Shown here: positions 8,941 through 53,949 of the stretch, one piece after another
Position numbering within the stretch: position 1 is the stretch's first letter
How the letters are laid out: each line of letters starts with the position of its first letter
Assembly: GCF_003353425.1 (NCBI RefSeq)
Contig: NZ_QRAO01000001.1
Coordinates: 806,001 to 870,000, forward strand
Length of the DNA stretch: 64,000 nucleotides
From: Marinirhabdus gelatinilytica
Lineage (GTDB): Bacteria > Bacteroidota > Bacteroidia > Flavobacteriales > Flavobacteriaceae
Direction of reading: 5' to 3'
Made by a program: the position numbers and the translations under genes
Notes under the pieces: generated by a model
The model's input: the letters and a program-made list of their open reading frames with translations, nothing else
Databases searched by the model: none
Told to the model about the DNA's origin: nothing

Positions 8941-8988
8941 AAAATTAATTTTTGAGGTTCACGACCTCGGTTTATAATTAAAGGACGG

Positions 8989-23303: not shown

Positions 23304-23334
23304 TTTGCAAGAATAAAAACACGGTGTATATTTG
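23304..23334 (+). promoter_or_regulatory. Promoter of tRNA-Asp array
   Basis: TTTG (23304-23307), 19 bases, TATATTTG (23327-23334): a textbook Bacteroidota promoter. Transcription from about 23341 would cover all four truncated copies and the intact tRNA. Confidence 0.75.
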
Positions 23335-23393
23335 CACTCGCTTCTAGCAATAGGGGCACAGACAAGCTTTTAAAGTCTTTAAAATAGTAGCAC

Positions 23394-23838
23394 GGTCTGG
23401 TTAGTTCAGTTGGTTAGAATATCCCGATTGCATCGGGAGGGTCGCTGAGCCAAAACATAGATTGGTAAGAAATTGACGAGCTTTACGTCATAAAATAATA
23501 AGCACGGTCTGGTAGTTCAGTTGGTTAGAATATCCCGATTGCATCGGGAGGGTCGCTGAGCCAAAACATAGATTGGTAAGAAATTGACGAGCTTTACGTC
23601 ATAAAATAACAAGCACGGTCTGGTAGTTCAGTTGGTTAGAATATCCCGGTTGCATCGGGAGGGTCGCTGAGCCAAAACATAGATTGGTAAGAAATTGACG
23701 AGCTTTACGTCATAAAATAACAAGCACGGTCTGGTAGTTCAGTTGGTTAGAATATCCCGATTGCATCGGGAGGGTCGCTGAGCCAAAACATAGATTGGTA
23801 AGAAATTGACGAGCTTTACGTCATAAAATAACAAGCAC
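23394..23838 (+). repeat. Four tandem truncated tRNA-Asp-like copies
   Basis: Units begin at 23394, 23506, 23617 and 23728 (lengths 112, 111, 111, 111). Each starts with the tRNA-Asp acceptor and D arm (GGTCTGG, TAGTTCAGTTGGTTAGAAT), then replaces the anticodon arm by a perfect hairpin TCCCG/CGGGA with loop ATTGCAT (GTTGCAT in unit 3, still pairing by G-T), keeps GGGTCGC, and then diverges: no T arm and no CCAGACC. The rest of the unit is a conserved spacer with a TGACG/CGTCA hairpin. Units are nearly identical; unit 1 has one extra T. Confidence 0.9.
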
Positions 23839-23912
23839 GGTCTGGTAGTTCAGTTGGTTAGAATACCTGCCTGTCACGCAGGGGGTCGCGAGTTCGAGTC
23901 TCGTCCAGACCG
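23839..23912 (+). tRNA. tRNA-Asp (GTC)
   Basis: 74 bases with full cloverleaf: acceptor GGTCTGG/CCAGACC, D arm, anticodon stem CCTGC/GCAGG with loop CTGTCAC (anticodon GTC), T arm GCGAG-TTCGAGT-CTCGT, discriminator G. CCA is not encoded. It is the fifth and only intact member of the array. Confidence 0.97.
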
Positions 23913-23995
23913 CAACTTATTCACACGAGTGAGTAATTGAAAATGTTGTGTTGTTCCGCTTTAAGCGGAATGTGGTTTAGAAATAGACCGATGAG

Positions 23996-53718: not shown

Positions 53719-53866
53719 GCGGATGTGGTGGAACTGGTAGACACGCTAGACTTAGGATTAAACCTAATAAAAGTTCTTAAAATATTGAAAAAGCGGGCGT
53801 GGTGGAATTGGTAGACACGCCAGACTTAGGATTTAACCTAAGAAAAAGTGTTAAAAAATTTAAAAT
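53719..53866 (+). repeat. Two tandem truncated tRNA-Leu copies
   Basis: Units start at 53719 and 53793, both 74 bases long. Each repeats the acceptor 5' strand, D arm and anticodon loop of tRNA-Leu up to GACTTAGGAT, then turns back into a hairpin (TTAGG-CCTAA in unit 1; CTTAGG-CCTAAG in unit 2) and continues as an AT-rich spacer. No T arm or acceptor 3' strand is present. Unit 2 has compensating changes in its acceptor (GCGGGCG). Confidence 0.9.
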
Positions 53867-53948
53867 GCGGATGTGGTGGAACTGGTAGACACGTCAGACT
53901 TAGGATCTGATGCCGCGAGGTGTGCAGGTTCGATTCCTGTCATCCGCA
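53867..53948 (+). tRNA. tRNA-Leu (TAG)
   Basis: 82 bases: acceptor GCGGATG/CATCCGC, D arm GGTGGAACTGGTAGACACG, anticodon stem TCAGA/TCTGA with loop CTTAGGA (anticodon TAG), long variable arm, T loop GGTTCGATTCC, discriminator A. CCA is not encoded. A terminator follows at once. Confidence 0.97.
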
Positions 53949-53949
53949 C

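Follow-up and report, generated by a model that had tools for sequence, protein, structure and literature searches.

A tandem array of truncated tRNA-Asp copies in Marinirhabdus gelatinilytica, best read as part of a GIY-YIG-linked tRNA-gene element of the Bacteroidota

SegB of the T-even phages is a free-standing GIY-YIG homing endonuclease that lies beside tRNA genes and cuts within them, that has RAWTSGAAC as its reported cut motif and that is inherited at high frequency in co-infections, according to the parts of the two sources consulted (PMC13096335, PMC2988022); the first of these also ascribes to it the tandem amplification of a tRNA segment via homologous recombination (PMC13096335). 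Mobile ORF elements have been described in fungal mitochondria, at Allomyces atp6 and at Glomus atp6, atp9, cox2 and nad3, where, in the portion of the source used here, an endonuclease ORF is inserted together with a replacement gene end and the native end is displaced downstream (PMC3630166). Titles and abstract openings in the open-licence PMC literature yielded no description of GIY-YIG genes joined to half-tRNA repeats in Bacteroidota, and the consulted part of PMC1564403 contains no mention of 'bacteroid' and nothing on the neighbourhood of tRNA genes.

Here we analysed a window of Marinirhabdus gelatinilytica DNA (the whole stretch of 64,000 nucleotides from position 806,001 to 870,000 of contig NZ_QRAO01000001.1) in which the most likely reading of an array of tRNA-Asp fragments is that it belongs to a GIY-YIG-linked element found at tRNA genes throughout the phylum, new in its arrangement and related in its mechanism to the known homing endonucleases. 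Judged by analogy, SegB would be the closest known system in mechanism: like the bacterial element it combines a GIY-YIG gene at tRNA genes with the tandem amplification of a tRNA segment, and the reverse complement of its motif appears, in our own reading, to be a T-loop sequence. SegB is, however, phage-borne and is presented in the consulted parts of its sources without split half-tRNAs or an anticodon-arm hairpin, whereas the bacterial element is chromosomal and has both. The fungal mobile ORFs would share with the proposed bacterial element the logic of replacement and displacement, but in the portion of the source used they belong to organellar protein genes of which only the 3' end is replaced, whereas the bacterial element sits at chromosomal tRNA genes, has halves on one or both sides and carries a hairpin at the junction. 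The rtT repeats, which are tandem and lie downstream of E. coli tyrT, resemble the Asp array in being partial-tRNA repeats beside an intact gene, but they hold the 3' part of the tRNA gene and stand downstream of it; at the gathering score, Rfam reported in the window two tRNAs and an S16-Flavobacteria ribosomal protein leader (8944-8978, minus strand) only, with no rtT match.

The array consists of four units of about 111 nt, placed head to tail at 23394-23838 upstream of a single intact tRNA-Asp (Table 1), and Tandem Repeats Finder gave it a period of 111, 4.3 copies and 98% matches. The original prediction, made from the letters alone, had reported four near-identical units of 111-112 nt before the intact tRNA, and this was confirmed, as was the loss of the T arm and the 3' acceptor strand from the units. 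Each unit runs from tRNA-Asp positions 1-27 through TCCCG-N7-CGGGA in the place of the anticodon arm to GGGTCGC, which matches the tRNA-Asp variable region, and ends in a tail unlike tRNA. The claim that the 5' half of tRNA-Asp is copied exactly stood for unit 2 and, with at most one difference from it, very nearly for the other members of units 2-4, but not for unit 1, in which one extra T in the D arm accounts for the length of 112 nt and whose tail has one substitution. All four predicted hairpins were located, including that of unit 3, where an A to G change leaves a G.T pair. Sequences of the form TCCCG-N3-12-CGGGA occur at only 4 places in the 64-kb window, all of them in the Asp units, against 0.21 expected (0 of 100 shuffles reached 4), and a search of the own genome with the Asp unit gave no other match (E <= 0.001). 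The array is free of Ns, but the tRNA-Arg and tRNA-Val arrays of the same genome hold runs of them, so that in this assembly, of unstated read type, the copy number of four could be off. We take TTG-N19-TATATTTG to be a Bacteroidetes-type promoter, and a like sequence precedes tRNA-Asp in the relatives that lack the array.

Table 1. Coordinates of the Asp array, its control elements and the integrase of the tRNA-Leu island
Feature	Position	Strand	Remark
Probable Bacteroidetes-type promoter, TTG-N19-TATATTTG, of array and tRNA-Asp	23305..23334	+	read by eye
Resident-type leader, here ahead of the first truncated copy	23361..23393	+	
Unit 1, 112 nt: tRNA-Asp 5' half with extra T in D arm, hairpin, tail	23394..23505	+	
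Unit 2, 111 nt: exact tRNA-Asp 1-27, hairpin, tail	23506..23616	+	
Unit 3, 111 nt: hairpin with G.T pair	23617..23727	+	
Unit 4, 111 nt: tail is the leader of the intact tRNA-Asp	23728..23838	+	
Hairpin TCCCGATTGCATCGGGA at anticodon-arm position	23422..23438	+	others 23533-23549, 23644-23660, 23755-23771
Second leader type (TTGACGAGCTTTACGTC...), directly 5' of intact tRNA-Asp	23806..23838	+	
Intact tRNA-Asp(GTC)	23839-23913	+	ARAGORN; Rfam 67.9 bits
404-aa tyrosine integrase	L249:1811-3025	-	far end of Leu island (loci L029 and L249)

Comparison of the orthologous tRNA-Asp locus within the genus showed it to be empty in three genomes (G664, G773 and G774) and occupied in a fourth (G464). The leader GACAAGCTTTTAAAGTC..., which lies directly 5' of tRNA-Asp in the three empty genomes, is found in the window ahead of truncated unit 1, and the leader TTGACGAGCTTTACGTC... 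ends every unit of the window and recurs with small differences in the occupied G464 and in a genome of another genus, G405. The two leaders are alike, and the second could therefore be an old diverged duplicate. Between the window and G405 the Asp unit has an identity of 94.6% over 112 nt, against 77% over 678 nt for the flanking DUF58 gene, and we count this closer likeness in favour of a probable horizontal movement. The Asp pattern found units in 4 of the 397 family genomes (G000, G405, G465 and G503) and missed the unit of G464, which belongs to the same set, and its reversed control gave one match (G535) among the family genomes. A match in G552 was dropped as a palindrome in another context. 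According to the original prediction, absence from close relatives would favour a neutral duplication: three of the four same-genus genomes are indeed empty, but other genera carry homologous units, which despite the empty sites would indicate a mobile element. No GIY-YIG gene was found at the Asp array of the window or in the fetched flanks of G405 (where the contig breaks inside the array), G465 and G503. The link of the Asp type to GIY-YIG is thinner than that of the Val and Arg types, its sole case being G785, in which Asp hairpin units occur together with a GIY-YIG gene that follows a full-length Asp pseudo-tRNA and seems to be frameshifted, its profile match covering positions 26-80 only. 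Copies of 23-24 nt of the tRNA-Asp 3' end were also seen about 19 kb downstream of the intact tRNA-Asp in G405 (C18:51-19463) and about 46 kb downstream in G464 (C12:840464-886167), as expected of ordinary islands, and G405 has an integrase match in the first 3 kb behind tRNA-Asp (L210).

The M. gelatinilytica genome has 32 tRNAs above the Rfam cut-off, and sister arrays stand at its tRNA-Arg(TCT) and tRNA-Val(TAC). The former is preceded by 78-nt copies of the 5' half, which have TCCCGCTTCATAGCGGGA as their hairpin and gave four matches (Ns break the last), and is followed by a 357-nt repeat that joins the tRNA 3' half and a terminator to a small ORF and to TCCCGCTGCCAGCGGGA as its hairpin; tRNA-Val has the downstream GIY-YIG type of unit only. 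The ORFs at both tRNAs encode GIY-YIG proteins (PF01541). Scanning 84,980 species with the Arg-linked protein, we kept the best 80 of 109 loci, and 62 of these 80 have a tRNA or a tRNA-like copy 18-188 nt ahead of their first GIY-YIG match and in the same orientation: Val-TAC in 55, Arg-TCT in 5 and, in the remaining 2, an odd call (Val-AAC, Lys-TTT) with the look of a hairpin pseudo-copy. The other 18 comprise 10 loci whose start is no more than 250 nt from the end of a contig and 8 that have no tRNA within 400 nt, and in 4 of these 8 (L078, L102, L105 and L122) a tyrosine integrase match lies upstream, so that an island may have inserted between the tRNA and the nuclease gene. The hairpin was present within 700 nt in 74 of the same best 80 loci. 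When first-order random sequence modelled on these segments was used instead, the mean over 20 runs was 4.05 and the highest count 9; among far flanks taken from the loci, each of 900 nt and shorter than the segments tested, 8 of 96 had it. Of these best 80 of 109 loci, 32 are truncated by the end of a contig no more than 2 kb away, to which short contigs contribute.

Taking the hairpin as the starting point, its strict pattern occurred in 11 of 395 Bacteroidota genomes (the reversed control had no match among those listed), and a GIY-YIG match lay within about 3 kb at 8 of the 11 loci. Presence is again patchy, and at tRNA-Val the GIY-YIG gene is carried by 3 of the 30 fetched relative loci (own, G404 and G776) and is missing from the same-genus G664, G773 and G464. 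A profile built from 31 nucleases matched in all 12 genomes tested (E <= 1e-5), and 23 of the 30 profile loci, some of them overlapping, have a tRNA, including Met, Asn and other Arg types, with 7 lacking a called tRNA. At tRNA-Arg(TCG) of G465, repeated units of A (the tRNA 5' half), palindrome and ORF, the last of them made up in part of Ns, lead directly into the intact tRNA, and at tRNA-Arg(ACG) of G774 there is one 5'-half unit with an ORF inside whose frame holds a stop; truncated 5' copies before an intact tRNA thus occur with and without a nuclease gene, and since the palindromes of these two genomes differ from TCCCG/CGGGA, there must be subfamilies. The same anatomy and hairpin are met at tRNA-Val and tRNA-Arg of other Bacteroidota, which upholds the view that the array is more than a decayed duplicate. 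We also observed tandem GIY-YIG units with tRNA-Met 3' halves and a period of about 350 (L261, G664:C1:1517112-1518036, and L259 in G774), whose different junction palindrome, TCCGCCGCGGCGGA, marks a further subfamily. Separately, short repeats of tRNA 3' ends lie about 75-330 nt behind tRNA-Met, Ala, Arg(ACG), His and Thr (L007, L015, L024, L025 and L010), some of them with a TGAGC...GTCGAAG-type repeat between, and these belong to a different class of insertion, one at the 3' end of tRNAs.

The anatomy of these loci was examined in the 71 that have an intact tRNA-Val(TAC) or tRNA-Arg(TCT), out of 89 given. Partial copies are found upstream in 32, downstream in 48 and on both sides in 20. Compared with the inner tRNA, the upstream copies have a median identity of 1.00 in the 5' part and 0.40 in the 3' part, a pattern seen in 32 of 32 loci, and the downstream copies have 0.55 in the 5' part and 1.00 in the 3' part, a pattern seen in 42 of 48, some downstream copies being still full-length pseudo-tRNAs. 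This asymmetry is what a cassette between the halves of a split gene would be expected to show, for the outer arms would stay homologous to the target and the inner sides would be free to decay. First and inner leaders differ (identity < 0.8) in 25 of 29 loci, those of the 32 with upstream copies in which the leaders were long enough to score, with 10 of the 25 falling at 0.6-0.8, where shuffles reach 0.7. At one locus (L096) the outer halves fit each other (GGGAGCT/AGCTCCC), the inner tRNA has GGGAGTT/AACTCCC and the terminators differ; L066 gives the same picture more weakly. Such coherent outer halves were found in these 2 loci only, L118 and L125 misfit a simple insertion, and most loci are uninformative on gene replacement because their halves are identical to the inner tRNA.

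The hairpin itself provides evidence of conservation. Its position at the anticodon arm is exact on both tRNA sides, with tRNA sequence flanking it left and right (GAATA|hp|GGGTC), and its loops vary. In 87 distinct entries of locus, side and hairpin, pair 2, at which the search pattern permitted a mismatch, is C-G in 68, T-A in 19 and mismatched in 0; pairs 1 and 3-5, prescribed by that pattern, give no test. Standard base pairs make up 86 of 87 entries at pair 6, 82 of 85 at pair 7 and 35 of 52 at pair 8. The upstream and downstream hairpins of one locus have the same pair-2 type in 18 of 20 loci, an agreement that is descriptive, since the rows of the hairpin and left/right tests are related and their P values not independent. 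The pairs co-vary, so the structure is kept, in DNA or in RNA, and these compensatory changes across loci agree with the original suggestion that the hairpin is maintained. As a separate observation, dead tRNA copies at several loci (L137, L152, L053, L118 and L221) have their D or T arm broken by palindromes of the REP type TCCCGATAG, as if these preferred tRNA-like hairpins.

The tRNA-linked nuclease is a protein of about 80-90 aa, and in two such proteins, of 81 and 90 aa, the GIY-YIG domain spans residues 3-72 and 3-75 (PF01541 at 61.1 and 54.5 bits, cut-off 22.6). An alignment of 31 of the 38 sequences tried (7 were left out), none of them from the Asp array, has Y6, Y17 and E52 invariant and G19 and R28 conserved in at least 90%. 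The structure predicted for the L046 relative (mean pLDDT 91.9) found as its best solved match UPF0213 BH0048 (1zg2, E 2.6e-4), followed by Slx1 (6seh, E 0.024). The small GIY-YIG proteins of UPF0213 and Slx1 type thus have the fold and size of the linked nuclease, which is set apart from them by its genome context of tRNA genes and half-tRNA repeats. Enzymes of the I-TevI type have a separate DNA-binding region next to the catalytic domain; the spans of the domain in the 81- and 90-aa proteins leave no such region beside it, and we therefore call the nuclease SegB-like in its working only and do not file it as a member of the SegB family. A phage or plasmid vehicle was considered and rejected: the Val-linked protein had no match in 50,697 phage records, IMG/VR held 0 loci for the Arg-linked and 1 for the Val-linked protein, and the plasmid records gave 7 matches at 35-40% identity.

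A second array in the window, outside the original finding, lies at tRNA-Leu(TAG) and shows what an integrase island leaves behind. Two 5'-half copies (53719-53866) precede an apparently foreign intact tRNA-Leu (the whole region being 53719-53949), which is identical to the tRNA-Leu of G405, from another genus, in 83 of 83 positions and matches those of the same-genus G464, G773 and G664 in 78, 76 and 76 of 83. Unit 1 has the resident-type 5' half (...CACGCTAGACTTAGGAT), and the resident-type 3' half is found about 111 kb downstream (G000:C1:971265-971318), where it adjoins a tyrosine integrase (Table 1); MerT/HMA and pyridine-nucleotide-disulphide oxidoreductase genes are among the cargo near the left end. 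This array is the left-end scar of an integrase island of about 111 kb inserted in the anticodon loop, unlike the Asp system. Tyrosine-recombinase islands resemble the Asp, Val and Arg loci in using tRNA genes as sites and in displacing part of the tRNA, but they are large and integrase-coded, and the Leu scar has no TCCCG/CGGGA hairpin. An integrase-like ORF was noticed by eye at L269, which the query with the Leu integrase did not report.

Taking these results together, we consider it probable that the Asp array is the ORF-less, amplified left (5') end of a small homing-endonuclease-like mobile cassette that sits at tRNA anticodon arms and carries a replacement tRNA. The full form of such a locus would be (A-hp-b'-x)n - A-ac-B - (ORF-a'-hp-B)m, where A and B are the 5' and 3' halves of the tRNA, ac its true anticodon arm, hp the TCCCG/CGGGA hairpin and ORF the minimal GIY-YIG nuclease. 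The nuclease would cut the resident tRNA gene at the anticodon arm, and a donor with A-hp and hp-B ends, each sharing homology with one of the broken halves, would serve to mend the break. This would leave the resident gene split into A-hp and hp-B, with the donor's complete tRNA between them taking over, and the repeated A (or B) would let homologous recombination add or drop units. The Asp locus lacks the ORF side, for which the nucleases encoded elsewhere in the genome, at tRNA-Arg and tRNA-Val, could stand in by acting in trans. A stronger version, which we advance only tentatively and hold to be rather doubtful, is that of a cleave-and-rescue element, whose GIY-YIG nuclease would destroy an essential tRNA gene at the anticodon arm, leave hairpin-capped halves and supply the only working copy, the Asp array being a non-autonomous amplified left end. 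Points that count against a cassette, besides the missing GIY-YIG gene at the window's Asp array and the 8 of 80 loci with no tRNA nearby, are that the nuclease has scarcely anything beyond its catalytic domain and that the intact tRNA would seem open to cleavage too, unless the flanks matter.

A neutral origin, in which the 5' region of the tRNA was recently duplicated in tandem and its decayed copies were amplified by unequal crossing-over, would account for units that are 99-100% alike and head to tail and for the absence of the array from three same-genus genomes, and it is also compatible with the inner terminator being repeated with the tRNA end (identity >= 0.8) behind the last matched downstream copy, not always the outermost, in 21 of 40 other loci (those of the 48 downstream loci with a copy keeping at least 5 of 7 acceptor bases). 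Duplication does not, however, predict the same hairpin in the same place with compensatory changes across the phylum, units that are more alike in another genus than the flanking gene is, first leaders that differ from the inner ones in most loci scored, or the association with a GIY-YIG gene, and we regard it as unlikely. We likewise find it improbable that the units work as RNA, with transcription preceding that of the tRNA, selection on the hairpin and a role as decoy, insulator or small RNA. Their place behind the tRNA promoter, the co-varying pairs and a unit that folds somewhat better than its shuffles (z -2.18, single fold) speak for such a role, but pairing between the 5' half and the tail, attractive in one fold, did not stand out across 31 units from different loci (mean 10.6 pairs vs 9.9 with shuffled tails), units are missing from most of the relatives searched, equivalent hairpins occur on the 3' side beside ORFs, and unit tails differ between loci. 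The original proposals of decoys for tRNA-processing enzymes or of half-tRNA regulatory RNAs are hence not favoured by this pairing test nor by the patchy distribution in close relatives and the hairpins behind the ORF; among the options that it offered, the comparative data point to pieces of an amplifying element.

The tRNA-Leu island, as a tRNA-carrying element inserted in an anticodon loop, makes an insertion at tRNA-Asp more plausible, yet it also supplies a rival, in which the Asp array and its sister loci are scars of tyrosine-recombinase islands that integrated in the anticodon loop with their own tRNA and have since been lost. The Leu array shows an integration of this kind, and relatives of its integrase occur in 5 of 101 hairpin-type loci (L078, L102, L105, L122 and, in G405, L210). 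The other 96 gave no match, though with one query, flanks of at most a few kb and distant integrases liable to be missed, and a Pfam scan of ten ORFs at 19.4-28.3 kb of the window, in the region of the Asp array, found no integrase, although an island there may since have been lost. The hairpin moreover retains tRNA sequence on each side, which the Leu scar does not, the recurrent gene is GIY-YIG instead, and at the first four of the five loci the integrase occupies the place of the missing tRNA, as a later island would; scars of this kind are in our view a poor prospect. Lowest of all we rank a REP-like palindrome, TCCCGA-N-TCGGGA, moved by another enzyme into duplicated tRNA arms with the GIY-YIG gene as a passenger. 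Such palindromes number 20 in the genome, 16 of them outside these arrays, and those of the TCCCGATAG type break D or T arms elsewhere, but the exact anticodon-arm placement on both tRNA sides with variable loops and the strong linkage to GIY-YIG make this explanation very unlikely.

Homing with rescue is familiar mainly from designed gene drives. A natural form is also present in fungal mitochondria, according to the portion of the source used (PMC3630166). If the mobile-cassette reading of the Asp array is true, the Bacteroidota would hold a phylum-wide class of mobile elements for which essential tRNA genes are target and payload at once, and the array and its relatives would offer a bacterial model for homing with rescue. 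Such a class would account for partial tRNA copies of a kind that is readily overlooked, and would predict that assemblies tend to break at these arrays and that some tRNA genes of the Bacteroidota have been replaced horizontally.
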